Part shown: positions 1,996-20,796 of the stretch, piece by piece
Layout of the letters: each line of letters opens with the position of its first letter
Numbering within the stretch: position 1 is the stretch's first letter
NCBI GenBank assembly: GCA_946478765.1
Contig: CAMLDH010000024.1
Coordinates: forward strand, 1-20,911
Direction: 5' to 3'
Source of the DNA: an uncultured Oxalobacteraceae bacterium
Lineage (GTDB): Bacteria > Pseudomonadota > Gammaproteobacteria > Burkholderiales > Burkholderiaceae
Length of the DNA: 20,911 nucleotides
Translations under genes and position numbers: made by a program
Notes under the pieces: generated by a model
Seen by the model: the letters and a program-made list of their open reading frames with translations, nothing else
What the model was told of the DNA's origin: nothing
The model's database searches: none

Positions 1996-2106
1996 AAAGT
2001 GCAGGGCAGCAGACCGGAGTCGGATCGCAATAGTAGCGCCCCACCAAAAAAGCAAGCGTGCCATCCTGTAGGCTGGCCGCAATTCTCTTTGCCCCGAGGA
2101 GGTTGT

Positions 2107-4624: not shown

Positions 4625-4925
4625 ACGCCGCTTTTCCTGGCGCGCTCACCATCGGCGCTTCACCGGACGGCCAGGCCACATCGTAGTACGGGTCGCCGAT
4701 GCATCGGCCGCTGCGGAAGTGCTGGCCAGCGGCGAGGTGAGCATTCGGGCGCGCGGACAGTTTTTGTGAGCGGCATTTGACCCCGCATTCGATGACGCAG
4801 TCCAACATCGTTTTTCTCTGCGCGCGCGCAAATCCGCGCAAGCGATGTTTGCCGCAGCCCGATTAATCTGCTTAAATGACATCAAGGCCCATCGGGATTT
4901 CAAAAAATTAATCAGGACAGATGAT
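4625..4925. other. Gap with an unproven small minus-strand ORF
   Basis: These 301 bases hold no gene I can support. The best candidate is a minus-strand ORF from an ATG at 4808 to a TAA at 4623 (61 residues). It is cysteine-rich at its start (MLDCVIECGVKC) and contains RCIGDPYYDVAWPSGEAP. It has no good ribosome binding site and matches no family I know. A competing plus-strand open frame ends at 4769. The bases just before 4926 include AGGACAG, the ribosome binding site of the next gene. Confidence 0.25.
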
Positions 4926-5462
4926 ATGGCCACCATAGATTGTCAGCGTCCGCCCAAGCTCTATCGATATTCAGAGCGACGCTGGCTGGAGCGTTCCTTG
5001 GCCTTGGGCGAATTTCGTTTGCGGCCTGCCGCCGACGATATCAAGCACAGCCATTCGCGCGCAAGCCAGCATATTTTGCCGTTTGGATCGACTGCAGCGC
5101 GCGGCGCGGCACCGGCCAGTTATCTCACGCTGAGTCTGGCGCAAGCATGGGATGAAATGCTGTTCGATGAATTTTCCGGCGCCGACTGTTGCCTCGTGAT
5201 TCATGACGCCGAAGAGTTTGGCGAGCGCATTCACCGCGCGGCGCAGCGCGCGCTGCCGAACTGGGCCGGCATCGACGCGGCGATTTCGTATGGCGTGCCG
5301 AGCCGTCTGGGCGCGGCGTTTTCGAAGGCCAAGCAGTATGCCCATCAGAAAGAATGGCTGTTTGCATGGCGTCCGATGCAAGCGACGATGTCGCTCAATC
5401 CGGTGGTAATCCAGATCGGCAATATCGAAGGCATTGCGGAGGTGCGCGTAAAAGCGGCGTGA
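4926..5462 (+). CDS. Hypothetical protein, N-terminus DUF2971-like
   Basis: This encodes 178 residues, started at the ATG at 4926 with AGGACAG nine bases upstream; an in-frame extension to 4845 is unsupported. It is soluble, without signal peptide or membrane segment. The opening PKLYRYSERRWLERSLALGE followed by FRLRPA resembles the start of DUF2971-type proteins, which begin with a YRY/YKY core and a GE-x-(R/Y)-(F/L)-x-P turn. The rest (LTLSLAQAWDEMLFDEF, CCLVIHDAEEFGERIHRA) is a plausible alpha/beta fold. The typical DUF2971 length is greater, so this may be a short relative or an unrelated family. The function is unknown. It is flanked by intergenic stretches on both sides and is probably monocistronic. 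Confidence 0.72.
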   Translation: MATIDCQRPPKLYRYSERRWLERSLALGEFRLRPAADDIKHSHSRASQHILPFGSTAARGAAPASYLTLSLAQAWDEMLFDEFSGADCCLVIHDAEEFGERIHRAAQRALPNWAGIDAAISYGVPSRLGAAFSKAKQYAHQKEWLFAWRPMQATMSLNPVVIQIGNIEGIAEVRVKAA

Positions 5463-5763
5463 AATTGTCGTTTGCGCGTAACGCTGGGACGGTGTTTTTT
5501 GAGGGGTCGATGAAAACATCGTTTCCCAAGCATTTTTTCGCGCTCAACGGCAATTTCGTTGGCATCTGCACGGAAAATGCATTCACTCATCGCCGTGTTG
5601 CAAGCCATCTCCTTTTCCTCCGACCAATCATTTATTTGATCCGTCATGCGGCGTGGTGCTCCGGCAGAGTAAAGTTGCGCAAGCAGCCAGACGCTCGGAT
5701 TGCAGGCCCTATGCCAGGCATTGCCGGCATGCGGCCGCGTCGGCTTTCCAGAGGAAATACCGA
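5463..5763. other. Intergenic stretch, no supported gene
   Basis: These 301 bases separate two rightward genes. A plus-strand frame from 5510 (with GAGGGG upstream) runs to a TGA overlapping the next start codon, but its protein looks random. A minus-strand frame starts at 5608 behind a good GGAGG and looks coding for about 50 residues, but then runs antisense into the upstream gene. Neither is strong enough to call. GAGGAAA at 5751-5757 is the ribosome binding site of the flavoprotein gene. Confidence 0.3.
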
Positions 5764-7197
5764 ATGAATACATTGACAGTCGATGTCGCGGTCATCGGTG
5801 CCGGTACAGCCGGCTTGGCGGCGTATCGCGCGGCCCGCTCGCACGGCAAACGGGTGGTGCTGATCGAGGGCGGACCCTACGGCACCACTTGCGCGCGGGT
5901 CGGCTGCATGCCCAGCAAATTACTGATTGCCGCCGCCGATGCCGCGCATGCCATCGGCGCGGCGTCCGCCTTCGGCGTGCATGCCGGCCCATTGCGCATT
6001 GACGGCAAAGCGGTGATGGCGCGGGTACGGGCCGAGCGCGACCGTTTCGTCGGTTTCGTGCTGGACGGCGTCAATAAAATCGCCGCCGGCGATCGTCTGC
6101 GCGGTTATGCAAGATTTCTCAATGCCCGGCAGTTGCAGGTGGATGAACACACCATCGTCAATGCCGAGCGCATCGTCATTGCAACCGGCTCCAGTCCGCA
6201 GATCCCGCCGGAACTGTGCGCGTTGGGCGAGCGCGCGGTGGTCAGTGACGACGTGTTCGAATGGCGGGATCTGCCGGCATCGGTCGCGGTGATGGGCATC
6301 GGCATCATCGGCCTCGAACTGGGCCAGGCGCTGCACCGGCTGGGCGTGCGGGTGGCGCTGTTCGGCCGCAGCGACCGGCTGGCACAGTTGAGCGATCCGG
6401 CGGTACGCGATACCGCGGCGCGCGTACTGGGCGCGGAGCTGGACCTGCGGCAGCGCACCGAAGTGCGCGGCGTGCAGCGCGACGGCACTGGCGTGCTACT
6501 GCATTCGCGCAGCCCCGACGGCAGCGAGCGCACCGAACATTACGACTATGTGCTGGCCGCCGCCGGCCGCATGCCCAATGTCAGCGGCCTGGATCTGAAA
6601 CACACTGGGCTGGCGCTCGATACGCGTGGTCTGCCGCTGTTTGATTCGCACACCATGCAGTGCGGAGACAGTGCGATTTTTATCGCCGGCGACGTCAGCA
6701 ACGAGCGTCCGCTGCTGCATGAAGCGATGGACCAGGGCCGCATTGCCGGCGACAATGCCGGGCGCTATCCGCAGGTGCATCCGGGTTTGCGCCGCAATCC
6801 GCTCAATATCGCGTTCACCGACCCGCAGATTGCCGGCGTCGGGCAGACCCATCGCAGTCTGCGGGCCGGCAGCTTCGCCACCGGCGAAGTGTCGTTCGAA
6901 GACCAGGGGCGCAGCCGCGTGATACTGCAAAATCGCGGCTTGTTGCGGGTCTACGCGGAATACGGTTCAGGCCGCTTCGTCGGCGCCGAAATGATCGGCC
7001 CGCATGCCGAACATCTGGCACACCTGCTGGCATGGGCGTGCCAGAGCGGCATGACTGTGGCGCAGATGCTCGATATGCCGTTTTACCATCCGGTGATTGA
7101 GGAGGGCGTACGCACCGCGTTGCGCGACCTGCATGAGAAGCTGTTGCATGGCGTGCCGGAAATAGAGCATTGCACCGATTGCACGCCAGGGATGTGA
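5764..7197 (+). CDS. Dihydrolipoamide-dehydrogenase-like flavoprotein disulfide reductase
   Basis: This encodes 477 residues, with a clear GAGGAAA site before the ATG. The N-terminal FAD-binding fold has VAVIGAGTAGLAAYRA (GAGTAG at 12-17). The redox-active pair is Cys43/Cys48 in TTCARVGCMPSK. The NAD(P)-binding glycine motif is GIGIIGLELG at 178-187, and the second FAD contact is IFIAGDV. The C-terminal dimerisation domain carries the catalytic base dyad His442 and Glu447 (HPVIEE, replacing the usual HPTxSE). The CxxxxC spacing and this dyad are those of class I pyridine nucleotide-disulfide oxidoreductases. No lipoyl acyltransferase or dehydrogenase-complex E1 gene is nearby, so the partner is unknown. 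The C-terminus adds HCTDCTPGM, a CxxC pair (Cys470/Cys473) reminiscent of the extra C-terminal thiols in thioredoxin or mercuric reductases. It could be a lipoamide, glutathione-type or other disulfide reductase. Confidence 0.88.
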   Translation: MNTLTVDVAVIGAGTAGLAAYRAARSHGKRVVLIEGGPYGTTCARVGCMPSKLLIAAADAAHAIGAASAFGVHAGPLRIDGKAVMARVRAERDRFVGFVLDGVNKIAAGDRLRGYARFLNARQLQVDEHTIVNAERIVIATGSSPQIPPELCALGERAVVSDDVFEWRDLPASVAVMGIGIIGLELGQALHRLGVRVALFGRSDRLAQLSDPAVRDTAARVLGAELDLRQRTEVRGVQRDGTGVLLHSRSPDGSERTEHYDYVLAAAGRMPNVSGLDLKHTGLALDTRGLPLFDSHTMQCGDSAIFIAGDVSNERPLLHEAMDQGRIAGDNAGRYPQVHPGLRRNPLNIAFTDPQIAGVGQTHRSLRAGSFATGEVSFEDQGRSRVILQNRGLLRVYAEYGSGRFVGAEMIGPHAEHLAHLLAWACQSGMTVAQMLDMPFYHPVIEEGVRTALRDLHEKLLHGVPEIEHCTDCTPGM

Positions 7198-7379
7198 TGT
7201 TTCATCGCGGCGGTGCAGGCAGGTCTTTAAAGCGATGCTAATGTCAGGACATACTTGCCCTGCCCAGCTTGGCTGGGTATGATGGCCCGATGTCGCCGAA
7301 TTTTGCTTGAGGCTTCCCAACCTGTAGCGTCCGCGCCGTATCGCGCTACGCTATTTTCATTTACCGATAGGAGTGCGCC

Positions 7380-7682
7380 ATGCTGGCATCGAACGTGAAG
7401 ACCGTGCGAAACGATATGAAAACACTGATGAAGGATGCGCAGGATCTGTTTCGGGAAGCGACTTCCGCGACCGGTGAAAAGGCCGATGAGCTGCGCGCCA
7501 AAGGTCTGGGCATGCTCGAAACAGCCATGACGAAGGCGCAGGAAGTGCAAGCGGCCGCACTTGAAACCGGCAAGGAAGTAGTCGAATCGGCAGACGACTT
7601 CGTCAAGGAAAATCCATGGAAGGCGGTCGCGATTTCCGCCGGGGTCGGCCTGCTGGTGGGCATGCTCATCTCGCGCAAGTAA
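7380..7682 (+). CDS. DUF883 (ElaB/YqjD) membrane-anchored protein
   Basis: This encodes 100 residues, with AGGAG six bases before the ATG. The first 75 residues form a long amphipathic helix (DMKTLMKDAQDLFREATSAT, AMTKAQEVQAAALETGKEVV). The end is the family hallmark: ENPWKAVAISAGVGLLVGML then ISRK, a single glycine-rich C-terminal transmembrane helix. E. coli relatives ElaB and YqjD are tail-anchored inner-membrane proteins that bind ribosomes in stationary phase. It leads a compact cluster with the YqjE-like gene (18 bases) and the YqjK-like gene (6 bases), the same order as E. coli yqjD-yqjE-yqjK, so co-transcription is likely. Confidence 0.92.
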   Translation: MLASNVKTVRNDMKTLMKDAQDLFREATSATGEKADELRAKGLGMLETAMTKAQEVQAAALETGKEVVESADDFVKENPWKAVAISAGVGLLVGMLISRK

Positions 7683-7700
7683 GCGTCCGTCATCGATCCC

Positions 7701-8093
7701 GTGGAAACTCCGCAAGCGAGTGCCGCCAAACCCGGCCCGGGCCTGATCGTCGGGCTGATTGCCATCGCAAAGAATGTGTTCGGCCTGGCGCTGAACCGCA
7801 TCGAACTCGCGGCGCTGGAGTTTTCGGAAGTGCGCGCTAACTTCCTGAAGCTGCTGCTGGTTTTCGCGTGCGGCATCATGGCAGTCTGGTTCGCGCTCGC
7901 GTACTGGACGGCGCTGCTGGTGTACCTGAGCTGGGACACGCTGGGATGGAAAGTATTGTTGATGCTGGCCGCCGTATTCACGCTGCTGGCGGTCGGCATA
8001 TTTTTGTATGCGCGCTCCATCCTGGCACAAGGCAGGTTATCGATGCCGGTGACGATGGCGGAATTACGCAACGATCGCGATGCGTTGCTATAG
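7701..8093 (+). CDS. yqjE: YqjE-like phage-holin superfamily membrane protein
   Basis: This encodes 130 residues from a GTG at 7701; no ATG in frame fits and there is no clear ribosome binding site, so translation may be coupled to the gene ending 18 bases upstream. The layout is typical of YqjE (DUF1469/holin superfamily III): a short hydrophilic start, an amphipathic helix (IAIAKNVFGLALNRIELAAL), then two transmembrane helices. These are LLLVFACGIMAVWFALAYWT (near 51-70) and VLLMLAAVFTLLAVGIFLYA (near 85-104), followed by a basic tail. Despite the holin label there is no phage context here. It is the middle gene of the DUF883-YqjE-YqjK-like operon. Confidence 0.88.
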   Translation: METPQASAAKPGPGLIVGLIAIAKNVFGLALNRIELAALEFSEVRANFLKLLLVFACGIMAVWFALAYWTALLVYLSWDTLGWKVLLMLAAVFTLLAVGIFLYARSILAQGRLSMPVTMAELRNDRDALL

Positions 8094-8099
8094 AAAATA

Positions 8100-8471
8100 A
8101 TGAAAAACTCCGCACCGGAATCCATCGCGCAGCGCAAAGCCCAACTCGTCGCAGAGGGCGCGGCATACCGGTCCGGTATCGGCGACGCCACGCAAGCGGT
8201 CAAGGAGGGCTTGCGCGCGCAATCGCTGGCCAGAAATGCACTCGGCTATTTCACCACGATCGGCTTTAGCCTGCTCAAGGGGCGCACCGGTGTCGCCGGT
8301 CTCGGTTTGCAGACGGCGCTGCCGTTGTTGATGAGCGGGGTGGCTGCATTGAACAAGAAACCCCGGTTGAAATTTTTGCTGCGCAGCGGATTGATTGCGG
8401 GCGCGGTAGGCACGCTGGCCAGCATTATCATCAAAAAGAAAAAGGCCGCTGTCGCTGCCCAAGAGCGTTAG
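8100..8471 (+). CDS. YqjK-like small membrane-associated protein
   Basis: This encodes 123 residues. The ATG at 8100 lies six bases after the YqjE-like stop codon. The opening ESIAQRKAQLVAEGAAYR resembles the E. coli YqjK start (ERRKAQLLSQI), and the position in the operon agrees, but identity beyond that is weak. A C-terminal hydrophobic helix (FLLRSGLIAGAVGTLASIII) is followed by a KKKK anchor. A second hydrophobic stretch lies at GLQTALPLLMSGVAAL. It is likely an inner-membrane protein of unknown function. The stop codon TAG at 8469-8471 is at the same time the first three bases of the palindromic element that follows. Confidence 0.8.
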   Translation: MKNSAPESIAQRKAQLVAEGAAYRSGIGDATQAVKEGLRAQSLARNALGYFTTIGFSLLKGRTGVAGLGLQTALPLLMSGVAALNKKPRLKFLLRSGLIAGAVGTLASIIIKKKKAAVAAQER

Positions 8472-8631
8472 AGCGGCTTTCGTATCAGTGTACGGGTACC
8501 GCGGGCCGCTTCGGGGCGCATCGCAGCGTTGCTCGTCGCTTGTGTGGCTCGCCACACGGCGCTCCTCGCGCCTTGCGCTGCACCCCAAATCAACCCACGC
8601 CACCCGCACACTGATACGAAAGCCGCTCTAA
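8468..8631. repeat. Palindromic element 1 of the TAGAGCGG family
   Basis: Two perfect 24-base inverted arms (8468-8491 and 8608-8631) extend to 30 bases with one mismatch (8468-8497 and 8602-8631). The outer ends read TTAGAGCGGCTTTC. The 104-base interior is itself structured: GTGTGGC-TC-GCCACAC, GGCGC/GCGCC and GCAGCG/CGCTGC can all pair. The whole would fold into a long branched hairpin or cruciform in DNA or RNA. It starts at the TAG stop of the YqjK-like gene. It contains no coding capacity and resembles a MITE or large REP-type unit. It could also end transcription of the operon, although only a short T-rich run (ATTTTGTC) follows. Confidence 0.9.
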
Positions 8632-8772
8632 TTTTGTCGTGACGCAAAGCGCTGTTTTCGCCATGCGCCGGGTGTAACAATCCGCTTATCGCATTCCTTC
8701 TCTTCAACTTGCCGAACTTGCATCGCCTCTTTGTGTCGAACGCTCTCTATTCAATGACACAAGGAAAAAATC

Positions 8773-9465
8773 ATGCGCAAGCAAGTAGCCGTATCGACCC
8801 TCGCCGCAGCCCTTGCACTCGCCGGCTGCGCCAACATGACTGAAACCCAGCGCGGCACCGCCACCGGCGCCGGAGTCGGCGCCGGCATAGGCGCAATACT
8901 GGGCGCCACTACCGGTGACGGCGGCGGCCGCCGAACGGCGCAAGGCGCTGCCTTGGGAGGGGCAGCCGGCGCAGTGATCGGCAATATCTGGTCGAGCAAG
9001 ATGGAACAGCAAAAGAGGGAAATGCAACAGGCCACGCAAGGCACCGGCGTACAAGTCAGTCAGACGCCGGACAATCGCCTGAAACTGGATATTCCGGCCG
9101 ACATTTCATTCGACACCAACCGGGCCGATATCAAACCCAATTTCCGCCCGGTGCTGGACAAGTTCGCGGCGACCTTGGTGGAGCATCCGTACACCATGGT
9201 GACCATCGTCGGCCACACCGACAACACCGGCAGCGACGCGATCAACGATCCGCTGTCGTTCGATCGGGCTGCCCATGCCCGCGATTATCTGGTGAGCAGA
9301 GGCGCCGCATCCAACCGTTTCAGAATCGATGGCAAGGGTTCGCATGAACCGCTCGTGGCCAACAATAACGATATCGATCGCGCCAAAAATCGCCGGGTGG
9401 AAATTTTCGTCGCAGAGCAGCAGGCGACTGCGCAAATGCCGTCCCAGATTCCGCAGCAGAGATGA
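8773..9465 (+). CDS. OmpA-family lipoprotein with glycine zipper (YiaD-like)
   Basis: This encodes 230 residues, with AAGGA eight bases before the ATG. A lipoprotein signal ends at LALAGC, acylated Cys19. Residues 30-72 form a glycine-zipper region (GTATGAGVGAGIGAILGA, GAALGGAAGAVIG) that can pack in or on the membrane. Residues 100-215 are an OmpA/MotB peptidoglycan-binding domain: DISFDTNRADIKPNF, VTIVGHTDNTGSD, NDPLSFDRAAHARDYLVSRG, and the terminal RAKNRRVEIFV. It should tether the outer membrane to peptidoglycan, as YiaD- or Pal-type proteins do. It is monocistronic, following the palindromic element by about 140 bases that likely hold its promoter. Confidence 0.93.
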   Translation: MRKQVAVSTLAAALALAGCANMTETQRGTATGAGVGAGIGAILGATTGDGGGRRTAQGAALGGAAGAVIGNIWSSKMEQQKREMQQATQGTGVQVSQTPDNRLKLDIPADISFDTNRADIKPNFRPVLDKFAATLVEHPYTMVTIVGHTDNTGSDAINDPLSFDRAAHARDYLVSRGAASNRFRIDGKGSHEPLVANNNDIDRAKNRRVEIFVAEQQATAQMPSQIPQQR

Positions 9466-9473
9466 GCGCAGCG

Positions 9474-9638
9474 TCACCACCGACGTGAAGAGCCGAGCAA
9501 ATCGGCATAGGGAGCAGCCCAAATGGGCCGCTCCCCTGCGATGAGCTTCTTCGAAGTTTCATACTCAAGCTCGGGCGGGCCGCAGTGCTCTGCGGCGGCG
9601 ACTCTGGTTTCCTGAAATTCAACAATACGGACTTCCAT
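9474..9638 (-). pseudogene. Truncated GyrI-like/effector-binding domain gene
   Basis: The minus strand from the ATG at 9638, behind a good AGGAG, reads MEVRIVEFQETRVAAAEHCG, then PPELEYETSKKLIA. This is the canonical N-terminus of stand-alone GyrI-like (SbmC/AraC effector-binding) domain proteins, which normally continue with a WR..N..LPP..HR.YG.HYTDP pattern for about 150 residues in total. Here homology breaks after residue 34 and the frame runs through unrelated sequence (GERPIWAAPYADLLGSSRRW) to a TGA at 9474. The breakpoint lies at about 9535, exactly at a GC hairpin. Start and ribosome binding site are intact, so a 54-residue peptide could still be made, but the ligand-binding fold cannot form. 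The family match is from memory. Confidence 0.65.
9510..9535. terminator. GC hairpin after the OmpA-like gene
   Basis: GGGAGCAGCCC pairs with GGGCCGCTCCC around AAAT, ten pairs with one mismatch. It lies 45 bases after the OmpA-like stop codon and coincides with the break in the GyrI-like remnant. No T-run follows on either strand, so intrinsic termination is doubtful; it may work as an mRNA 3' stabiliser. Confidence 0.45.
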
Positions 9639-9768
9639 CGAACACTCCTGGGATTTTGCCTTGCGACCTAACGTTTAAAGTGAGAGGCACGGAGCCTCCC
9701 ACTCCACTGTAATGTTAAAGCGCATAACGGCATCACGCTACTTTGCTTGCAGCGACATCGAGACTTGT

Positions 9769-10869
9769 TTAACGGTCGGCGGCAAACAACTTGTCGTATG
9801 CCGCCAGCAACGTCTGGTGCATCGCGCTGCCTTGCATGTCGGCCCCCAATGTTTCCAGCCCAAAGAAGCGCTCGCTGCGGTCGAGCAAGGCCTCGGCCTG
9901 AGGCACGGTTTCGGCGCCATACAGCAGCACCAGGGAACGACGGTAATTCTCCACGTCGTCGACGTTGAGCATGCTTTCAATGCAGCGGTACACCAGGCGG
10001 CGTGCCGGCGCCAGGTCTTGAAAGTGATGAATCCAGTCGCAACCTTCGCGGATCGCTTCCTGGTCGCCAACGGCCAGTGCCAGCAGCGTTTTCAGTTCGC
10101 CGATGCGCAGTTGTTTCCACGGCGTGCCGACCGGAATTGCCAGGCCGAGAATTTCCCATAGCGGGCGTTCATCGTTCAGGTTCATCGTTTGCAGCGCAAT
10201 CTCGAAGCGCGGGTGCGCGCCGTAGCTGGAAAACACGCCCTGGTCTTTCGGGTGTACCAGGGTCACGTTCATGACGGGATAGCGGCCGCCAAGCGACGCA
10301 TCCTTGACCAGGATACCGAAACCGGCTTTGCGTAATCCAGCGATACCGGCGGCGATATTCGGGAAGCGCGCGATGACCTCATCCGGCACTTCCGGCAGAC
10401 ACAGTCCTTCGCTGATGATGCGGTACTTGATGGCACGCTCGAAAATCTCGGACAAGGCCTGGCTGCGCGCTTCCATCATCGTATTGCCGGCCGCCATGCC
10501 GTTGCTGACGTACAGGTTGCCGATAATATTGACCGGAATGAACGTCTGGGCGCCGTCGCGCAAACGGGTGTAGGGCAGGGCGCAGATGCCGCGCGCCACG
10601 TTGCCGGAATTGAGGTCGACCAACACTTCGCCATCGATTTCGCCATCCGGGTTGTAGAAAGCATGCAATTCGGGATTGAGCAGTTCAGCCGGCCACTTGC
10701 CGTCGGACGTCGGTGCGAACCAGCGCTCTTGTGGATAGTGCACGAAAGGACGGTTGGCGCGGGTTTCGCCCAGGTGAAAGTGTGTCCAGAAATAATGGGT
10801 GCCGAGGCGCTCGAACGGGTCGACGGGTACCGACAAAAATGGCTTGTCGGCATATCGTTCAATTGGCAA
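9769..10869 (-). pseudogene. ycaO: Broken ycaO (5'-truncated, internal deletion)
   Basis: The 366-codon open frame is clearly YcaO, the ATP-dependent ribosomal protein S12 methylthiotransferase accessory factor: FERLGTHYFW, LGETRANRPFVHYPQERWF, GICALPYTR, IPVNIIGNLYVSNGMAAGNT, SEIFERAIKYR (Glu141/Glu144) and WKQLRIGELKTLLALA. Intact E. coli YcaO has about 586 residues. Two parts are gone. First, roughly 70 N-terminal residues: homology starts only at FERL, the first ExxE glutamate is Asp, and the open frame can begin only at an unsupported TTG. Second, about 140 central residues are missing in frame: GAHPRFEIALQ (217-227) jumps to MNLNDERPLWEILGLA (229-244). ATP-binding elements lie in both lost parts, so activity is not expected. 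An IS66 scrap adjoins the missing 5' end. Confidence 0.78.
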
Positions 10870-10944
10870 GAGTGCGCTATGACCAGCGATCTATACCAAA
10901 CGGTGGAAAGTCGGTAAGCGTCCGGTCTGAACCGTATTGGCGTT

Positions 10945-11054
10945 GCCGTGAACGCGCTGATCAGTACCGCCCACTCAACAACATCGATCCCGAAGCGTGC
11001 TTGCGGTATATGTGGGTCACGCTAGCTAACGCCGCTGACTGCATCTTTTCGTAG
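10945..11054 (+). mobile_element. IS66-family transposase C-terminal remnant
   Basis: Two overlapping frames together reproduce a stretch near the C-terminus of the IS66 TnpC transposase. NALISTAH (around 10951-10974) corresponds to YSLIGTAK. After a one-base frameshift, LNNIDPEACLRYMWVTLANA (10975-11034) corresponds to a LNGIDPEAYLRHVLTxIAD-type sequence. The frame stops at TAG 11052-11054, before the usual ELLPW end. No terminal inverted repeat or target duplication was found. The scrap lies between the broken 5' end of ycaO and the KimA-like gene. The match is from memory of IS66 sequences. Confidence 0.55.
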
Positions 11055-11080
11055 ACGCCAATGCATCAGCGAAAACTTCC

Positions 11081-13036
11081 CTACACCTTCATCGGTAAAA
11101 TAATCATCTGCAATCCTTCGAAATGCAGCCGCCGCTGGATCGCCAGCGCGGCCTGGTTATGCAGTATGCGGGTGAACCAGTTATCGCTCTGAAAAATCAA
11201 TTTGCTGGTGAAGAAAATGGCATTCGGATATTCCTGCTGCACTTCTTCACACAGCCGCGTAATCTCAATGACCGCATCGGTGCCGAACGCGAGACGCGAG
11301 GTCGAGGCCATGTCGTGGCTATGGCAAAAGTCGACAAAGAAATTGAGCGTCGTATCGGCTTCCGCCCGCATTTTTTCCAGCGCGCCATCACCGCCATACG
11401 CGTGCGAATCGACGGTGCGTGCGCTGATGAATACGAAATTCTTGAAGTGCCCGGGGAACATGCGCTGTACCCACAATAACGCGTGCAGACCGCCGCCGCG
11501 CGACGAGCCTACGATAAACACTGCCGTCTGCGCATCCGGATCGGCGGGCACCGCGCCGACATGGCTGCCGAACGGCTGATGCGCAAACACCTTGTCGACG
11601 TCGCCGATTTTCTGCTTCGTCTCGCGATAGTGACTCTTGATGAAGAGGCAGATGCCGATCACCAATGCGGTGATCAGGATCGTGACCCATCCGCCTTCGA
11701 AAAACTTTTCCACCACCGTCACCACGAGAATGCTGAAGGTCACGACCAGCCCGATGGCCGACAGGGCAAGGCGCCGCATCCACCGTTTATCGTCCTTGCG
11801 ATGCTTGATCCAGTAGCGGCATAGCCCTGCCAGCGACAGGCTGAAGGTCAGGAATACGTTGATGCTGTACAGGACGACCAGCAAATCGACCGCGCCGCGG
11901 CTCCAGTACAGCACCGCAATCGCGGCGATGCCCATGACCAGCACGCCATTTTGCGTCACCAGGCGCGTCGATAAATAGCGAAATTTGTGCGGCACCCAGG
12001 AATCGGCGGCCATGTTCGCAAGCACCGATGGCCCGCCCAGAAATCCGGTGTTGGCGGCTACCAGCAACAGTCCCGCTTCGAATGCCAATACCACCGACAA
12101 CGCGCCATGTAGCGTCACGCCTTGCAGCCCCATGTCGGCCAGAATCGAATTGAATACGACCGCATTCAGGGTCTGTCCGTCGACCGGCCTGGCATCCCAG
12201 AGCAGGTACAGCAGAATAATGCCGCCGGCGGTGAAGGCGAGACTGAATGCCATGTACAGCATGGTCATCTTGCCGGTGTGCTCGCGCGGTTCGGCCAGCG
12301 AATTGACGTTGTTGGATACCGCTTCGATGCCGGTATAGGTGCCGCCGCCCAATGAATACGCCTTGAGCAACAACGCGATGGTAAACAGCCATCCGGTTTC
12401 GGAAGCCATTTTTTGCGATTCGTGTATCGTGTCGGGCAGCAGCGCGGGGATGCTGCCCGCATGTACTGCCAGGCCGTAAATAATGACGATGACGTGCGTG
12501 ATGACAAATCCCATGAAGATGGGCAGCAGAATCTTGATCGACTCTTTTGCCCCGCGCAGATTCGTCCATAGCAGGAACACGACCAGACTCAGTTCCAACG
12601 CCAGCTTCCAGGTCTGTGCGCCCAGCGGCAACAGGCTGAAAAAGGCGTCGACGCCGCTGGCAATCGAAATGGCGATCGTCAGCACATAGTCGACGATCAG
12701 GGCGGCGCCGGAGATCAAACCGGCGTGCGGGCCGATCAACACACTCGCAATGCGATAGCCGCCGCCACCGGTCGGAAACAACTCGATGATCTGGTTGTAT
12801 GCCAGTGAGATGATAAAAACCGTTACCGCTGTCGCGATAGCGAGATACAGGCCGAAGTGGCCATGCGGGCCGAGCGCCTTGAATGCTTCTTCCGGCCCGT
12901 AGGCGGATGACGACAGGCCGTCCGCGCCGAGACCGACCCACGCAAGGAAGGCAACCAGTGCCAGTGAATGACGGGTTTCCGTCTTTAGAGGATCGAGTGC
13001 CTTGCCCAGCACCATCTCCCGGATCGATGTTTTCAT
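11081..13036 (-). CDS. KimA-like potassium importer (KUP/APC superfamily)
   Basis: This encodes 651 residues: about 12 transmembrane helices (25 to about 460) and a cytosolic C-terminal domain (about 465-651). It aligns well with my recollection of B. subtilis KimA (YdaO), a high-affinity K+/H+ symporter. Matches are ADGLSSSAYGPEE (39-50), LFPTGGGGYRIAS, LIVDYVLTIAISIASG (113-128), GGTYTGIEAVSN (231-242), LVAANTGFLGGP and the terminal RILHNQAALAIQRRL (623-637). Asp39, Tyr46, Asp116, Tyr117, Thr235 and Glu238 sit where KimA has its ion-pathway Asp/Tyr/Thr/Glu residues. The C-terminal domain starts with VFIVGSSRGGGLHALLWVQR, unlike KimA in detail. The start is the ATG at 13036, with AAGGG about 11 bases upstream. 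The gene is divergent from a KdpDE pair and probably controlled by it. A generic amino-acid permease is the alternative, but the C-terminal domain argues against it. Confidence 0.88.
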   Translation of the reverse strand: MKTSIREMVLGKALDPLKTETRHSLALVAFLAWVGLGADGLSSSAYGPEEAFKALGPHGHFGLYLAIATAVTVFIISLAYNQIIELFPTGGGGYRIASVLIGPHAGLISGAALIVDYVLTIAISIASGVDAFFSLLPLGAQTWKLALELSLVVFLLWTNLRGAKESIKILLPIFMGFVITHVIVIIYGLAVHAGSIPALLPDTIHESQKMASETGWLFTIALLLKAYSLGGGTYTGIEAVSNNVNSLAEPREHTGKMTMLYMAFSLAFTAGGIILLYLLWDARPVDGQTLNAVVFNSILADMGLQGVTLHGALSVVLAFEAGLLLVAANTGFLGGPSVLANMAADSWVPHKFRYLSTRLVTQNGVLVMGIAAIAVLYWSRGAVDLLVVLYSINVFLTFSLSLAGLCRYWIKHRKDDKRWMRRLALSAIGLVVTFSILVVTVVEKFFEGGWVTILITALVIGICLFIKSHYRETKQKIGDVDKVFAHQPFGSHVGAVPADPDAQTAVFIVGSSRGGGLHALLWVQRMFPGHFKNFVFISARTVDSHAYGGDGALEKMRAEADTTLNFFVDFCHSHDMASTSRLAFGTDAVIEITRLCEEVQQEYPNAIFFTSKLIFQSDNWFTRILHNQAALAIQRRLHFEGLQMIILPMKV

Positions 13037-13173
13037 GTTGGTTTGTTCCCTTGTTGTGCACTAGGTCAGGATTTGATTCCTGCATGCGCACGGTGATTTA
13101 TTCGTACAATGGACCGGCTTTCCGTTTATTTCTCTTGGCCGCCACTGGATGTATCAAGCCTATCCAAAAAGGT

Positions 13174-13212
13174 GTAAAAATTTTGTAAAAAATCGGCGAA
13201 GGAACGTAAAAA
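13174..13212. promoter_or_regulatory. GTAAAAA repeats, candidate KdpE operator
   Basis: Three direct GTAAAAA repeats begin at 13174, 13185 and 13206, spaced 11 and 21 bases, one and two helical turns. Tandem sites at about 11-base spacing are how OmpR/PhoB-type regulators such as KdpE bind. Read toward the KimA-like gene the first two repeats give TTTTTTACAAAATTTTTACACC, closely resembling the T-rich KdpE site I recall upstream of E. coli kdpFABC (TTTTTTTACACCCC). They lie about 140 bases from the transporter start and about 125 from the kinase start. The promoters themselves are not resolved. Confidence 0.55.
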
Positions 13213-13336
13213 TGCTGCAAATTCACGGCCTTACCATCGCGAGAAATTGATACTTTCTTTACCTTTGCAAAATTTTTAGGCTATCCCGGTTACTCTGCGA
13301 TATATCAAGCCAGGACTCGACATCGAACCAACCGCC

Positions 13337-15478
13337 ATGCCAGCAACCCATGACCATCGCCCCGCTTCGGGTACCGTGGCCGAGCGCATCGAAGATGATG
13401 CACAGGCAGGCCGGATCGCACAGTCCGTCAGCCCGATGTGGAAAACGGGCGCCGCACTGCTTGCCTGTATCGGTCCGCAGGCGGGTGCCGAACACGTGGT
13501 GCGCAGCGCGGCGCGGCTGGCCGTGCAATTGCATGCGGAATGGCACGCGGTTTATGTCGAGACACCGCAATTGCAACGGCTGCCTTCGGACCATCGCGAA
13601 CGCATCCTGAAGACACTGAAGCTGGCTGAGAATTTGGGCGCGACCACCGCCGTGCTGGCGGACAATGACGTTGCGCTTGCAATCGTCGGTTATGCGCGCA
13701 GCCGGAATTTTTCCAAGGTCGTGTTGGGACACAGCCATTTTACGTGGGTGAATTATTTCCCCTGGCACAAGGAGTGCCTGAAACGCATCGCCGCTTACGC
13801 GCCCGATATCGACCTGATTGAAATCGGACGCGCGGACGCCAGTGAGACTACCGCATCGCTCGAAGCGGACGGGCTGGAACAACCGCCCGCTGCATTACCG
13901 AGTGAAGCGGAAAGCGGGACCGCGGTGCTGCGCCAGCCGTCGCGCCGACGGCGCTACCTGCTGGCAGCCGGCGCCAGTCTGGCGACGACGCTGCTCACGA
14001 TTCCCTTGTTGCCTTATCTCGAACTGGCCAATATCGCGATGCTGTTCATGCTGACCGTCGTGCTGGTGTCGGTCCGCTTCGGACGCGAGGCATCGGTTGT
14101 GGCGACCCTGGTGGGCGTGATCGCGCTGGTGTTCGCGATGCCAAGGTTCTCCTTTGCCGCCGGCGATTTGCAATACACGGTCACGTTTCTGGTGATGCTG
14201 AGCGTGGGGCTCATCACGGGCAAGCTGACGGCCGATCTGCGTTATCAGGCTGGCGTCGCGTTGCATCGCGAATTGCGCTCGCGTGCGTTGTATGAATTCG
14301 CACGGGCTTTGTCCGGCACCTTGCAAATCGCACAGGTATTCGAGATCACGCGCACCTTTATCCAACGCACCTTCCATGCAAAGGCCACGCTATTGTTGCC
14401 CGACGATGCCGGCCGCTTGCAGTATCCAACGCTCAGTCTCGATCGCGGCAACCGCGCGCCGAACATGAGCGTGCTGGACATGGGGGTAGCACAATGGGCA
14501 TTCGATCATGCAGCGCCTGCCGGCACCGGCACCGATATGTTGCCCACCAATCGCTTTTTCTATTTGCCGCTGGTCGCCCCGATGCGCACGCGCGGCGTGC
14601 TGGCGATTGAGCCGCAAAGCCGGCGCTGGGCGTTGATCCCGGAGCAGCGCAAACAGCTCGATACTTTCGCGGCACTGGCGGCGATTGCACTGGAGCGCGT
14701 GCATTACGTCGACGTGGCGCAGGATGCGCTGGTGCGGATGGAATCCGAGCGCTTGCGCAATTCGCTGCTGGCGGCCTTGTCGCACGATTTGCGCACGCCG
14801 CTGACGTCGCTGGTCGGGATATCCGAATCGCTCGCGATGTCGAAGCCGCCGCTGACGCAGCCGCAACGGGAACTGGCGGATGCATTGCGCGAGGAAGCGG
14901 TGCGCATGAGCAATCTGGTGGCCAATCTGCTGGACATGGCGCGCATCCAGAGCGGGCAGGTAAAACTCAATCTGCAATGGCAACCGTTCGAGGAAGTCGT
15001 CGGCAGCGCGCTGCGCGCCAGCGGTTTGCAACTCGCCGCGCATGTAGTATCGACACAGCTGACGCGCGACTTGCCGCTGGTGCGTTTCGATGCAGTGCTG
15101 ATCGAGCGTGTACTGTGCAACCTGGTGGAGAACGCGGCCAAATATACCCCTGCCGGCTCGCGCATTGTGGTGACCGCGGAAGTTAATGCGCCATTTCTGC
15201 AGGCCTCGATATGCGACAACGGACCGGGCATACCGATGGGGCGCGAAGAAGCGATCTTTGAAAAATTCACGCGCGGCGAACGCGAGTCGGCCAAGTCCGG
15301 TGTCGGTCTCGGCCTGGCCATTTGCCGGGCGATTGTCGAAGCGCATGGCGGGACCATACGCGCGGCCGGTTCAGCCGATGGCGGCGCGTGCTTCACCTTC
15401 ACTTTGCCGGTCGGCACGCCGCCCGATTTACCCTCCATAGACGAAAGCGAGAGCAGCATCTCGCATGCCCCATCATGA
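13337..15478 (+). CDS. KdpD-type sensor histidine kinase lacking the N-terminal KdpD domain
   Basis: This encodes 713 residues versus about 890 for KdpD. Domains in order: a Usp-like domain (38-165; LLACIGPQAGAEHVVRSAAR, FSKVVLGHSHFTW); the four-helix DUF4118 membrane module (207-297); GAF (about 315-455); HisKA with phospho-acceptor His483 in LSHDLRTPLTS; and HATPase with N box NLVENAAKYTP (596-606), DNGPG (627-631) and GVGLGL (655-660). These match KdpD from its Usp domain onward. The preceding KdpD sensor domain (about 210 residues with Walker-like motifs) is missing, leaving a short 33-residue lead. The ATG at 13337 lacks a Shine-Dalgarno; Met34, just before the Usp domain, is an alternative start. 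The stop overlaps the kdpE start (ATGA), so the two are translationally coupled. It presumably senses K+ or osmotic state and phosphorylates KdpE. Confidence 0.92.
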   Translation: MPATHDHRPASGTVAERIEDDAQAGRIAQSVSPMWKTGAALLACIGPQAGAEHVVRSAARLAVQLHAEWHAVYVETPQLQRLPSDHRERILKTLKLAENLGATTAVLADNDVALAIVGYARSRNFSKVVLGHSHFTWVNYFPWHKECLKRIAAYAPDIDLIEIGRADASETTASLEADGLEQPPAALPSEAESGTAVLRQPSRRRRYLLAAGASLATTLLTIPLLPYLELANIAMLFMLTVVLVSVRFGREASVVATLVGVIALVFAMPRFSFAAGDLQYTVTFLVMLSVGLITGKLTADLRYQAGVALHRELRSRALYEFARALSGTLQIAQVFEITRTFIQRTFHAKATLLLPDDAGRLQYPTLSLDRGNRAPNMSVLDMGVAQWAFDHAAPAGTGTDMLPTNRFFYLPLVAPMRTRGVLAIEPQSRRWALIPEQRKQLDTFAALAAIALERVHYVDVAQDALVRMESERLRNSLLAALSHDLRTPLTSLVGISESLAMSKPPLTQPQRELADALREEAVRMSNLVANLLDMARIQSGQVKLNLQWQPFEEVVGSALRASGLQLAAHVVSTQLTRDLPLVRFDAVLIERVLCNLVENAAKYTPAGSRIVVTAEVNAPFLQASICDNGPGIPMGREEAIFEKFTRGERESAKSGVGLGLAICRAIVEAHGGTIRAAGSADGGACFTFTLPVGTPPDLPSIDESESSISHAPS

Positions 15479-16173
15479 GTGAAGCAACCCCGATCGCCCT
15501 ATTGATCGAAGACGAACCGCAAATCCGGCGTTTCGTGCGCATGGCGCTGGAGGCGGAAGGCTGGCAGATTTTCGAATCGGAATCGATGCGCCGCGGCCTC
15601 ATCGATGCCGGCACGCGCAAGCCGAACCTGATCATTCTCGACCTCGGATTGCCGGACGGCGACGGCGTCGATTTCATTGCCGATATCCGGACCTGGTCGG
15701 CGGTGCCGATCATCGTGCTGTCGGCACGCGTGGACGAATCCGACAAGATCCGGGCGCTCGATGCCGGCGCGGATGACTATCTCACCAAGCCGTTCGGTGT
15801 CGGAGAATTGCTGGCGCGCGTGCGCGCGACCTTGCGGCGGCAGCGGCAGCCGGAAATCAGTGCCGATGGGCAGATCCGGTTCGGCGATGTCAAGGTGGAT
15901 ATCCGCACACGGCTGGTGACCAAGGCGGATCAGGTGGTGCATCTGACGCCGACCGAATACCGGCTACTTACGGCGCTGGTGACGCATGCGGGACGCGTGG
16001 TGACCAATCCGCAACTGCTGCGCGAAGTCTGGGGGCCATCCAACACCGAGAATGGGCATTATCTGCGCATCTACATGGGGCATTTGCGGCAAAAACTCGA
16101 AGACGATCCGGCCCAGCCGAAATACTTGTTGACCGAGACGGCGGTGGGGTATCGGCTGTTGTTGCCGCACTAG
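15475..16173 (+). CDS. kdpE: KdpE response regulator
   Basis: This encodes 232 residues, an OmpR/PhoB-family regulator of normal KdpE length. The receiver domain has Glu12-Asp13 in LLIEDEPQIRRF, phospho-acceptor Asp56 in LIILDLGLPDGDG, the S/T switch in VLSAR, and Lys105 in DDYLTKPFGVGEL. A winged-helix domain (about 130-230) includes HLTPTEYRLL, VTNPQLLREVWGPSNTENGH and YLRIYMGHLRQKLEDDP, with the terminal GVGYRL-type wing (AVGYRLLLPH). LPDGDGVDF and WGPSNTENGHYLRIYMG are characteristic of KdpE within this family. The start overlaps the kinase stop by four bases. No kdpFABC is nearby; the likely target is the divergent KimA-like gene. The stop codon TAG (16171-16173) is shared with a palindromic element. 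Confidence 0.94.
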   Translation: MSEATPIALLIEDEPQIRRFVRMALEAEGWQIFESESMRRGLIDAGTRKPNLIILDLGLPDGDGVDFIADIRTWSAVPIIVLSARVDESDKIRALDAGADDYLTKPFGVGELLARVRATLRRQRQPEISADGQIRFGDVKVDIRTRLVTKADQVVHLTPTEYRLLTALVTHAGRVVTNPQLLREVWGPSNTENGHYLRIYMGHLRQKLEDDPAQPKYLLTETAVGYRLLLPH

Positions 16174-16288: not shown

Positions 16289-17611
16289 CTAAGGCGTATC
16301 AGTTTCCTTGCGCCACAGCGCCCCGCTCTTCCCATCCTCATCCGTAACGCTGACGTGAAAGCCGATGGTGGTTTGCCCCGAGATGCCTTCCAGCGAACCA
16401 TCCTTGCGGAAGCGGCTGACGGTCTTGTCGGCAGCCGGATGCAACTCGATCGTGATGTCGCACGCGTCTTCCTGCTGGAACGCATCGATGATGAGGGTGT
16501 TGACCCGGTTGATGAGTGCATTCTCGGCCTGCGCCAGACGATCGATGCTGTTCGTCTCCTCTGCGTCTTGCGCGGCGGGATCGGCATCTTCCGCGGCGCC
16601 GAACAGCTGATCGAGCGTCTGCTTGAATTCGCGATGGGTGGTGACGCGGTAAGCCAGCGTCGCTTGCGGAAAATGCGCATCCAGCATGAGCGACGTCTTG
16701 ATGCGCTCGGGGTTGGTGGTCAGGATGATGCGCTCGCCCGCCCTTTCTTCCAGCAGCAGCCAGCGGTGTTGCTCAAAATATTCGGGCGCGAAATTTTGCA
16801 GCGCATGGGCCGGCCTGATCCGCTCCTTTTTGAAGCCCTCGTAGGGCACGCCGAAGAACCTGGCAAGCGACTCGCCGATATCCGACAACTTGACCTGAAA
16901 CTCGTTGACGAGGACATCCTGGATATCGCGCCCCTTGCGGCGCGCCAGGCGGCCGGCCAACTCCAGTTCGGGCAGCGACAGGACCGCTTCTGCCACCAGC
17001 GGATGGTATTTGGAGCGGATCACCAGCGGCGGCTTCAGGCGCTGCGCGAATGCGATCGCCAGCGTCTCGCACAACTCCTTCAATCCCTCTTCCACCATTT
17101 TCGGAAAGGCTTCGCTGGTGTGGCTGTTGATGAGCTGCAGCACGCCCAGCAATTCCCGGGTCTGCGCATTGACCAGCGGCGCGACCAGCATCTGCTTGGA
17201 GCGATAGCCGGTGCGCTGATCGATCTTGCTGATGTAATGCAGCCCCGGCGAAATGGCGTTCAGTTCCGCCTCGTCATACACGTCGCGGATGTTGACGACC
17301 TTTTTTGTCAGCGCGACATAGCCGGCGATGCTCTTGTCGGAAATCGGCAGTGAAAAATCCTTGAACGAATGGAGCCCGGTCTTGACCTTGGTCTCGATCG
17401 ACGTCTTGCCTTCGCTTAGCACATAGATGGTCAGACGGTCGCAGGCCGCGAGTTCGCAGATATCCTGCGACAGATCGAGCATGATCTCGTCGATATTGCC
17501 GGTCGAATGAATCTTGTTGGTGACCGTCTGCAGCATCTTGAGGAAGTGCACGCGGCTGCCTGCGTCTTCGTCATGGTCGGTGTGGGGCGGTATGCCGGAA
17601 AGCTTGTTCAT
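16289..17611 (-). CDS. GAF + GspE_N (MshEN) protein lacking the ATPase domain
   Basis: This encodes 440 residues from the ATG at 17611, chosen for its GGGAGA site; in-frame extension to 17689 lacks one. A GAF domain (about 25-190; LTIYVLSEGKTSIETKVKTG, GYRSKQMLVAPLVNAQTRELL, GVLQLINS) is followed by a GspE N-terminal/MshEN-type module (about 215-340; LAGRLARRKGRDIQDVLVNE, IGESLARFFGVPYEGF, LLLEERAGERIILTTNPERI). The start of a type II/IV secretion ATPase comes next: ALINRVNTLIIDAFQQEDAC, DITIELHPA, RFRKDGSLEGI (about 365-415). In GspE/PilB relatives this continues into about 300 residues with Walker A and B. Here the protein ends 29 residues later, next to palindromic element 2. Either it is a truncated ATPase or a natural regulatory protein that kept the GAF and nucleotide-sensing parts. 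It has an intact frame, start and stop. Confidence 0.78.
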   Translation of the reverse strand: MNKLSGIPPHTDHDEDAGSRVHFLKMLQTVTNKIHSTGNIDEIMLDLSQDICELAACDRLTIYVLSEGKTSIETKVKTGLHSFKDFSLPISDKSIAGYVALTKKVVNIRDVYDEAELNAISPGLHYISKIDQRTGYRSKQMLVAPLVNAQTRELLGVLQLINSHTSEAFPKMVEEGLKELCETLAIAFAQRLKPPLVIRSKYHPLVAEAVLSLPELELAGRLARRKGRDIQDVLVNEFQVKLSDIGESLARFFGVPYEGFKKERIRPAHALQNFAPEYFEQHRWLLLEERAGERIILTTNPERIKTSLMLDAHFPQATLAYRVTTHREFKQTLDQLFGAAEDADPAAQDAEETNSIDRLAQAENALINRVNTLIIDAFQQEDACDITIELHPAADKTVSRFRKDGSLEGISGQTTIGFHVSVTDEDGKSGALWRKETDTP

Positions 17612-17867
17612 GCGCGGTTCTCCCGAATCTCGAATCCGATTGCGAATGTCATCCTTGTGCATAGTAGCGGTCCGGTCAAGCCTGAGCAACCGAATCGCGC
17701 GCCGTTAATGCATTGCGTTCATGCGGCCGCGCCGGCAAATTTGAATTGGCAAGGCGCATTGCATTGCGCGAATGCTTTCCTGGAATAATTACCATCTTGC
17801 CGCAATCGAGCGGTGCGGGTAGCATGGGACGAACATCGGGTTTTGGCATTCTCTATCTGGGGGGATC

Positions 17868-19659: not shown

Positions 19660-20796
19660 TCAGCGCCTGAACATCGCTTCGAATTTCAGGCGGTCGGTGG
19701 TCGCCTTGCGCGCATCCTCGTGGCTCACCTTCTTCGCCTGCATCAGCGCCTGCAAATCGTCGTTCATCGTGTGGCATCCCGATGCCGCGTCCTGTCCCAG
19801 CTTTTCCAGCAAGGGACGGATGCCGCCCAGATTGCGGCTCTCGATCAGGCGGCTGACGTCGGGATTGACAGTCAGGCATTCGGACGCCAGGCAATACGTG
19901 TTGCCCTCGACCGACGGCAGCAAGGCCTGGCAGATCACGCCGCGCAGCGAATTCGACAAGGCTTCGGCTTGCGCATCGGTGCTGCCCAGCAGGCGCAGCA
20001 GTTTTTGCAATCCCAGCTCGGTCGATCGCGCGTGCAGCGTAGCCAGCACCAGGGGCCCGGATTCCGACAGCGCCAACGCCTCTTGCGCGGTTTGCGCGTC
20101 GCGGATCTCGCCGATCAGGATGACATCGGGCCGCTCGCGCAACGCATCGAGCGCGCCCAGATAAAAACTGTCGACGTCGCCGTCGGCGCCCACTTCGCGT
20201 TGCGTAATGATGCATTTGCGTTGCGGGATCAGCGTTTCAACCGGGTCTTCAATCGTGATGATGTGTCCCGAGCGCGTCTTGTTGATCTGATCGAGCAAGG
20301 ACGCAATCGTGGTCGATTTCCCCTGGCAGGTATCGCCGATGATCAGCACCAGGCCGCTGTTGAGCTTCGCGAAATCCTGCGCGCACTTGCGCAAGCCGAT
20401 CTGCTCCAGCGCCACCGGCTCGGTCGGGAAACGGCGAATCACGCAGCCGAGCCGCTTGTTTCCCTGAAACGAAAAACAGTTCGCCCGGATGCGCGCGCTG
20501 TGCAAATCCTTGGAGCGATCGAACGCGCGATCGCGGATGCACTCTTCCCAATTCGGCTCGATCACTTCGAAAAATTCTTCCAGCTCTTCGCGCGTGATCG
20601 GCGTGTCCGACACCGCGACCAGCCGCTTCGGCTGGCGCAGCATGATGGGACTGTTCTGATGAATGAGGATGTCGCTGAATACGGTATCGGAGTTAAGCAG
20701 ATGGACGATTTGCTCGATCAGGGTGCCGAGGACGGGAAGGCCAGCTATTTCGCTGAAGGTGAGGGTTTCAATGAGCGAGTATTGTTGATGTTGCAT
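19660..20796 (-). CDS. PilT/PilU-like type IV pilus retraction ATPase, orphan
   Basis: This encodes 378 residues. An N-terminal PAS-like domain (LTFSEIAGLPVLG to about 120) precedes the RecA-like ATPase core. The Walker A motif is GDTCQGKSTT at 154-163, in place of the usual GPTGSGKSTT. The Asp box is HIITIEDPVE (178-187), Walker B is DVILIGEIRD (224-233) and the His box is LATLHARS (251-258). The order and spacing follow PilT/PilU, the hexameric motors that retract type IV pili. The C-terminal AIRE motif of true PilT is not evident; the protein ends TTDRLKFEAMFRR. No pil genes are adjacent, only an acyltransferase downstream, so it is an orphan paralogue, perhaps PilU-like. CAGGGA precedes the ATG at 20796. 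Confidence 0.9.
   Translation of the reverse strand: MQHQQYSLIETLTFSEIAGLPVLGTLIEQIVHLLNSDTVFSDILIHQNSPIMLRQPKRLVAVSDTPITREELEEFFEVIEPNWEECIRDRAFDRSKDLHSARIRANCFSFQGNKRLGCVIRRFPTEPVALEQIGLRKCAQDFAKLNSGLVLIIGDTCQGKSTTIASLLDQINKTRSGHIITIEDPVETLIPQRKCIITQREVGADGDVDSFYLGALDALRERPDVILIGEIRDAQTAQEALALSESGPLVLATLHARSTELGLQKLLRLLGSTDAQAEALSNSLRGVICQALLPSVEGNTYCLASECLTVNPDVSRLIESRNLGGIRPLLEKLGQDAASGCHTMNDDLQALMQAKKVSHEDARKATTDRLKFEAMFRR

Follow-up and report, generated by a model that had tools for sequence, protein, structure and literature searches.

A kimA-type gene divergent from genes for a KdpD lacking its N-terminal domain and for KdpE: a probable potassium-limitation module and one case of recurrent re-use of KdpDE

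Background

The two-component system KdpDE is classically tied to the potassium pump Kdp; KdpD of Escherichia coli senses K+ limitation, and phosphorylated KdpE (KdpE-P) acts as an activator via a sequence motif, the KdpE box. KimA is a K+/H+ symporter. In the DNA considered here, a stretch of 20,911 nucleotides from an uncultured Oxalobacteraceae bacterium (contig CAMLDH010000024.1, positions 1 to 20,911; hereafter the window), a kimA-type gene and a gene for a short KdpD are arranged back to back, with kdpE located downstream of kdpD. As judged from the sequence, this locus is probably a K+-limitation module in which KdpDE drives kimA, the N-terminal domain of KdpD presumably having been lost because the partner is not the pump, and one case of recurrent re-use of KdpDE.

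The described systems closest to this locus are known from E. coli and Bacillus subtilis; statements on them are taken from excerpts of the papers cited. In E. coli, the N-terminal domain of KdpD (PF02702) is a serine kinase phosphorylating Ser162 of KdpB, by which the pump is inhibited, while the membrane and GAF regions of the protein are assigned the sensing of K+ (PMC11018627). The domain survey of that study from 2024 covered 5495 species and was limited to species annotated with a Kdp pump; KdpDs of pumpless species are therefore outside its data set. E. coli KdpD without N-terminal parts has a deregulated phosphatase and fails to repress at high K+ (PMC2714519). KdpE of E. coli binds two direct repeats, TTTATA and TTTACA, separated by 5 bp, with R193, R200 and T215 as DNA-contact residues (PMC3264566). 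KimA of B. subtilis is under the control of cyclic di-AMP (c-di-AMP; PMC10284832), and a c-di-AMP riboswitch controls expression of KtrAB and KimA in Bacillus (PMC11018627). In the open-licence literature, judged mostly by title and the start of the abstract, no description of kdpDE linked to kup or kimA in Proteobacteria was found, no paper on KimA in Betaproteobacteria, and none on kdpDE without kdpFABC with such a linkage. The available excerpts of PMC3135505, PMC3610689 and PMC11018627 do not describe it either.

Results and discussion

Gene content of the locus

The features of the locus are as follows; G and L numbers denote genomes and loci of the surveys throughout.

11081..13036, minus strand: kimA-type gene, predicted K+/H+ symporter of the KUP family, 651 aa (phmmer to PDB 6s3k, profile, site residues)
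13337..15478, plus strand: kdpD without PF02702, with Usp-like, DUF4118, GAF, HisKA and HATPase parts, 713 aa (Pfam, NF007793, alignment to KdpD of G002)
15475..16173, plus strand: kdpE, 232 aa, response regulator whose start overlaps the kdpD stop as ATGA (NF007820 above cut-off; start read directly)
13173..13189, minus strand: predicted KdpE box, a perfect match to TTTAYA-N5-TTTAYA some 140 bp upstream of kimA (motif scan)
13247..13263, plus strand: second, weaker KdpE-box-like site with two mismatches, facing kdpD (motif scan)
13263..13308, plus strand: stretch with weak similarity to the kdpF promoter region of G002 (local alignment)

The KimA-like transporter gene divergent from short kdpD and kdpE, which an initial annotation had proposed from the sequence, is thus present with all its parts. 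In the kinase, Pfam detected DUF4118, GAF_3, HisKA and HATPase_c at E <= 1e-3. PF02702, with its Walker A and B motifs, is found neither in the protein nor anywhere in the window, in agreement with that annotation. The KdpD model NF007793 is matched from profile position 225 on, with 674 bits and hence under the cut-off of 1123 bits. In an alignment with the full-length KdpD of G002, a metagenome-assembled genome of Herminiimonas sp., similarity starts at residue 268 of the translated frame, in the linker before the Usp-like part. The Usp part itself is weakly recognisable by sequence through a match (E 1.4e-6) to PDB 7ji4, a KdpD chain which we take to be a Usp domain; the remaining DUF4118/GAF/HisKA/HATPase core is present, and the phospho-acceptor region and the ATPase domain are intact. 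KdpE is full length and scores above the equivalog cut-off (346.8 versus 325 bits, NF007820). Its start at 15475, read directly, overlaps the kdpD stop codon, while the profile frame was given from 15472. The equivalents of R193, R200 and T215 are conserved, as judged by eye in an alignment to 4kny.

When the window was searched by tblastn with KdpA, KdpB, KdpC and the N-terminal domain of G002, no match was obtained at E <= 1e-3 (the tiny kdpF was not searched); as far as these three subunits are concerned, no kdpFABC operon adjoins kdpDE. Kup and TrkH/KtrB-type references had no match in the window at the same threshold, and a scan of 12900-13500 for sigma-70 promoters and terminators found neither. 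Compared to KdpDE-kdpFABC of E. coli, the locus shares a KdpE above the family cut-off, the TTTATA/TTTACA box with its 5-bp spacer and the Usp-DUF4118-GAF-HisKA-HATPase core. It differs by the absence of pump genes and of the PF02702 serine-kinase domain and by its divergent partner, KimA.

Among 80 kimA loci examined, KdpD and/or KdpE (at least 50% identity) were detected near kimA in six (L001, L002, L004, L005, L030, L039), L039 being from Herbaspirillum sp. ST 5-3. The gene order of the window recurs in relatives: a short kdpDE pair divergent from kimA is also present in G018, G004, G016 and G153, and in G005 over two contigs. Two other relatives show different arrangements. In G002, kdpABC and full-length kdpDE are divergent from kimA, and in G001 full-length kdpDE lies upstream of kimA. 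KdpA was detected in 12 and PF02702 in 14 of 24 genomes tested; neither was found in G018, G004 and G003. The absence of kdpFABC claimed in the annotation therefore holds for the window locus but varies in the relatives, since the operon was not found in the assemblies of G018 and G004 and is present elsewhere in the genome in G005, G016 and G153.

KdpE boxes upstream of kimA

In the whole window, a single site with no more than one mismatch to the KdpE box was detected, the perfect match at 13173-13189 facing kimA, while 0.05 such sites were expected from shuffled sequences. Predicted boxes with at most two mismatches are present in all six kimA/short-kdpD intergenic regions (window, G018, G004, G016, G153, G005), and the level of each was reached by no more than 0.5% of 200 shuffles. 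For comparison, such boxes were detected in 10 of 14 regions upstream of kdpA, the exceptions being L089, L092, L093 and L094.

In a comparison of the 300 bp upstream of kimA, for which 76 of the 80 loci were usable, boxes with at most two mismatches were found in all six genes with kdpDE nearby, a group that takes in G002, with pump genes between kimA and kdpDE, and G001 with its full-length KdpD. None of the 34 close kimA genes (at least 65% identity) without kdpDE showed a box, and five of 36 more distant ones did. The proposal that KdpDE has been redirected to a secondary K+/H+ symporter is supported by the recurring gene order and by the restriction of boxes among close kimA genes to those with kdpDE nearby, although regulation itself is predicted from sequence.

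Four of the five distant kimA genes with a box are Pseudomonas genes divergent from kdpABC, with shuffle frequencies of their own of 0.07-0.11. In these loci (L066, L067, L070, L080; about 4700-12000), the box-like site between kimA and kdpABC has two mismatches, and no kdpD was detected beside the pump genes in the DNA fetched. Together with G002 they resemble the window in that kimA is back to back with kdp genes and box-like sites lie between, but unlike the window they possess the pump. The fifth gene, in L072 (Opitutaceae), has a box-like site with one mismatch upstream; in the DNA fetched there was no kdpABC and just a distant histidine-kinase match of 30% identity about 3 kb away.

Short KdpD-KdpE pairs in other genomes

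Three surveys for KdpD kinases at E <= 1e-60 took in a family (245 genomes), the order (300) and the phylum (299), and 36 family genomes were searched again at 1e-50. Only the best four or three candidates per genome were scored in these large surveys, by which extra copies can be missed. A locus was considered to lack the N-terminal domain if its open frame was shorter than 800 aa, and contig-edge cases were left out. The family set yielded 29 such loci, 24 after removal of those at contig edges (G159, G011, G068, G199 (C50), G026). The order set contributed 26 besides G018, 23 without contig-edge G532, G503 and G333, and the phylum set 36 besides G018 and G472, of which none was dropped and several are near contig ends (e.g. 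L273, L292, L297, L302). Also left out were G245 (frame broken on the C-terminal side, beside kdpC), G199 C83 (the N-terminal part of a gene divided between contigs), G318 (805-aa frame) and a second match in G188, whose E of 5e-52 did not reach the 1e-60 threshold. In G246, the locus linked to Kup looks broken, with pieces in several frames; it was counted once as Kup and left out of the trees.

In total, 83 loci were obtained, with neighbours within 1.5 kb being Kup in 49, KimA in eight, Trk/Ktr in eight and none of these in 18. By set, KimA, Kup and none were found in 5, 17 and 2 loci of the family and in 3, 18 and 2 of the order, while in the phylum there were 14 with Kup, eight with Trk/Ktr and 14 with none. 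Pfam searches with example proteins served to check the Kup and Trk/Ktr assignments. Neither kdpA or kdpC nor a separate PF02702-like frame was detected in any of the 83 loci. Among the 65 linked loci, for which the median gap is 105 bp, the transporter gene is on the same strand in 56 (Kup 48, KimA 3, Trk/Ktr 5), divergent in six (KimA 5, Kup 1) and convergent in three (Trk/Ktr in L278, L296 and L297). The short pair recurs with KimA, but the module is not specific for KimA: Kup is the commonest partner, and Trk/Ktr occurs too.

Loci with full-length KdpD gave a different picture. Within flanks of about 1.5 kb, Kup, KimA or TrkH-type transporters were found in none of 46, and KdpB or KdpC in 38; L197 in this comparison is G188, whose kup lies past the flank. 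Of the remaining eight, L199, L202, L205, L212, L134 and L111 have KdpC farther away on the same contig, the others being L112 and L116.

Boxes were also searched in these loci. Of 37 Kup/KimA-KdpDE units of the family and order sets, with L265 of G318 taken in and L248 left out (contig edge), 33 have a box with at most two mismatches versus 6.1% of shuffles, and 23 one with at most one mismatch versus 0.4%. Random 400-bp pieces of the same loci reached 6.1% and 2.6%, respectively. Among the 83 loci, counting those with sufficient upstream DNA, boxes with at most two mismatches were detected for KimA in 6/8, Kup in 37/47, Trk/Ktr in 1/6 and none in 5/18, compared to 4.7% of random pieces. The argument from these predicted boxes is accordingly a strong one for the family and order sets, but beyond them it is weak.

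Further observations concern the phylum set. In eight loci (L279, L298, L299, L276, L278, L280, L296, L297), the short pair lies beside KtrAB or TrkH/TrkA-type genes, and the E. coli-type box is mostly absent. The 14 pairs lacking any tested K+ transporter within 1.5 kb are L282-L292 and L300-L302; TrkA/TrkH-type genes are located a few kb away in L282.

Co-occurrence of the N-terminal domain and the pump

In the 245 family genomes, KdpC was detected in 153 and PF02702 in 157, with both in 151 and neither in 86 (Fisher p 5e-56, treating the genomes as independent of kinship). KdpC without PF02702 occurs in two (G026, G093) and PF02702 without KdpC in six (G001, G025, G031, G042, G062, G104). 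In two of these, G042 and G104, the KdpD frame reaches nearly to the end of a contig, and the pump may be missing from the assembly only. A kinase without PF02702 is present in 19 genomes, 18 of which lack KdpC; the KdpD of the exception, G026, is near a contig end and has an internal stop. In G025 and G062, neither of which has KdpC, PF02702 is weak (E 1e-22 and 6e-51, versus usually about 1e-95). By eye, both have lost the acidic residues of the DELAH-type Walker B motif, and G025 in addition has an altered Walker A; by sequence, these N-terminal domains are decayed.

In trees of the kinase core (73 and 119 sequences), short KdpDs appear in several parts, and a single clade of short KimA-linked KdpDs is not supported. 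At least 13 changes between short and full-length state were counted on the 119-sequence tree, which has many weakly supported branches and for whose rows L305-L324 the label full was based solely on the length of the open frame.

According to the initial annotation, loss of the domain changed the input of the kinase. Since PF02702 is a serine kinase inhibiting KdpB (PMC11018627, in excerpts), its loss is best understood as removal of an output specific to the pump, rather than mainly as a changed input. That the loss mainly altered input or shut-off, so that the kinase responds to another signal or remains active at high K+, is possible but rather less likely. The E. coli truncations with their deregulated phosphatase and lack of repression at high K+ (PMC2714519) speak for it, and because of them an additional effect on shut-off at high K+ is likely for the short KdpDs by analogy. 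However, the domain that is lost tracks the pump across the 245 genomes, and the Usp-like, DUF4118 and GAF parts are retained, K+ sensing being placed in the membrane and GAF parts (PMC11018627). The same excerpts describe KdpD/Usp-only serine kinases without histidine kinase in Deinococcus geothermalis, in which likewise one of two KdpD outputs has been removed. The two cases are mirror images: D. geothermalis retains the pump and has lost the histidine kinase, while the window locus has lost the serine kinase and contains no pump genes.

Proposed function

The locus is probably a self-contained K+-limitation module. The short membrane-bound KdpD would sense low K+ via its Usp/DUF4118/GAF parts and phosphorylate KdpE; KdpE-P would bind the box between the divergent genes and induce kimA, a putative proton-coupled K+ importer, and probably kdpDE as well. 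The PF02702 domain, inhibitory to KdpB in E. coli, may have been lost as the partner is not the pump. The module would be one of the recurrent pump-free KdpDE pairs without N-terminal domain linked to Kup, KimA, Trk or Ktr, for which repeated re-use of KdpDE with non-Kdp K+ importers is the best reading. We also lean, somewhat less firmly, towards a more general view, in which KdpDE is no regulator reserved for the Kdp pump, but a portable K+-starvation switch that Pseudomonadota have repeatedly attached to unrelated K+ importers (KimA, Kup, Trk and Ktr). The N-terminal domain would then be a pump brake that can be shed and is retained only if KdpB is available as its substrate.

Several observations weigh against this interpretation. 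G001 keeps an intact-looking N-terminal domain with neither KdpA nor KdpC in its assembly. No tested K+ transporter is within 1.5 kb in 18 of the 83 loci, and three of the eight Trk/Ktr neighbours are convergent, so that a common upstream region does not exist. Boxes are weak or lacking among the Trk/Ktr loci (1/6 with at most two mismatches) and in two KimA loci of the order set, L252 and L255. A tree-aware pair test is suggestive, but underpowered and not significant (about four pairs in the same direction, none opposite and one tied on well-supported branches; p 0.125). Many of the surveyed genomes are draft or metagenome-assembled ones, with the best three or four candidates scored in each. 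Finally, a short pair can be near a pump operon: in G188 (L325, 1408-11994; outside the 83), kdpBC and full-length kdpDE are followed on the same strand by a unit of short kdpD, second kdpE and kup, in which KdpD is 29% identical to the reference; this unit lies a few kb from kdpC, with kup as the neighbour of the short pair.

If the interpretation is correct, the loci predict a two-component route to K+ uptake with KdpE-controlled Kup, KimA and perhaps Trk/Ktr, distinct from the c-di-AMP riboswitch of Bacillus. They also allow the claim made in 2024, of an N-terminal domain acting as serine kinase on KdpB, to be tested in nature: at loci whose partner is not the pump, this domain is missing or has decayed.

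Origin of the locus

The kinase of the window shares its highest identity, 77% over the core, with that of G002. In the 119-sequence tree it falls into one group with G025, G062 and the short KdpDs of G153, G005, G016 and G239 (support of 99 in the Shimodaira-Hasegawa-like approximate likelihood-ratio test). The stretch at 13263..13308 aligned to the kdpF promoter region of G002 with a local score of 31, compared to a maximum of 25 in 200 shuffles, which is a weak match.

A single deletion reaching from the kdpF promoter into kdpD could have removed kdpFABC together with the N-terminal domain, leaving the rest of kdpD joined to the kdp promoter. G002 would represent the undeleted arrangement, the junction lies in the linker, and the upstream sequence resembles the kdpF promoter. 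This origin is possible but less likely than not, the promoter match being weak and the kinase grouping with G025 and G062, which kept a decayed N-terminal domain, and not next to G002. Because of this grouping, stepwise loss looks at least as likely.

It is improbable that the pair is a decaying kdpFABCDE remnant located beside kimA by chance and without regulatory link. The arrangement in G002, the start of the window KdpD in the linker just past the lost domain, the remaining kdpF-promoter-like stretch and the real decay of the domain in G025 and G062 would all suit a remnant. In contrast, the phospho-acceptor region and ATPase domain of KdpD are intact and KdpE is full length, pairing with Kup, KimA or Trk/Ktr recurs in 65 of 83 loci, and among close kimA genes boxes are present only where kdpDE is nearby. 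A chance neighbourhood was rejected for the recurrence of both linkage and boxes.

Identity of the transporter

The motifs ADGLSSSAYG, VDYVLT, TGIEA and LHNQ are all present in the window transporter. KimA of B. subtilis (KUP family, 6s3k) is its sole match among PDB sequences at E <= 1e-3 (phmmer, E 6e-58, residues 4-482), and a profile search gave E 1.5e-87. Excerpts of PMC6994465 assign roles at the K+ and proton sites of KimA to D36, Y43, T121, Y377 and E233. The window protein has D39, Y46, T120, Y390 and E238 at these positions; the last four equivalents occur in all of 19 aligned KimA-type proteins and that of D36 in 18. The transporter is thus of the KimA type by sequence, and K+/H+ symport is predicted for it. 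An amino-acid permease, suggested by the Pfam label AA_permease_2 and by source annotations, which among the 120 homologues listed read amino acid transporter or permease where a name was given (K+ transporter domain PF02705 was found in 11), is very unlikely and was rejected, since PDB matches and K+/proton-site residues point to KimA.

The initial annotation had contrasted the locus with Firmicutes, where c-di-AMP controls KimA, and this fits the distribution of the diadenylate cyclase domain PF02457, which in a search with one Pfam model was found in one of 21 KimA-bearing genomes and not in the other 20. Control by c-di-AMP as in Bacillus therefore appears unlikely. The window protein is like KimA of B. 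subtilis in its sequence, its K+/proton-site residues and the HNQ motif of the cytosolic domain, but has His for R337 and Ala for S582. R337 is replaced by His in 13 of the 19 aligned proteins. The equivalents of H579 and N580 of the pocket (HN, residues 626-628 of the window protein) are invariant in all 19; with the cyclase domain mostly not found, another ligand or a structural role is possible.

Other genes in the window

Four further reading frames were noted. A protein with GAF and MshEN domains (16289-17689, minus strand) and a PilT/PilU-type ATPase (19660-20796, minus strand) are apparently unrelated to the kimA/kdpDE locus. At 9769-10869 (minus strand), a YcaO-type protein of 366 aa from a TTG start matches the S12-type YcaO model from profile position 74, below the cut-off. 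An open reading frame at 2104-3045 (plus strand) has a sub-threshold match to DHHA1.

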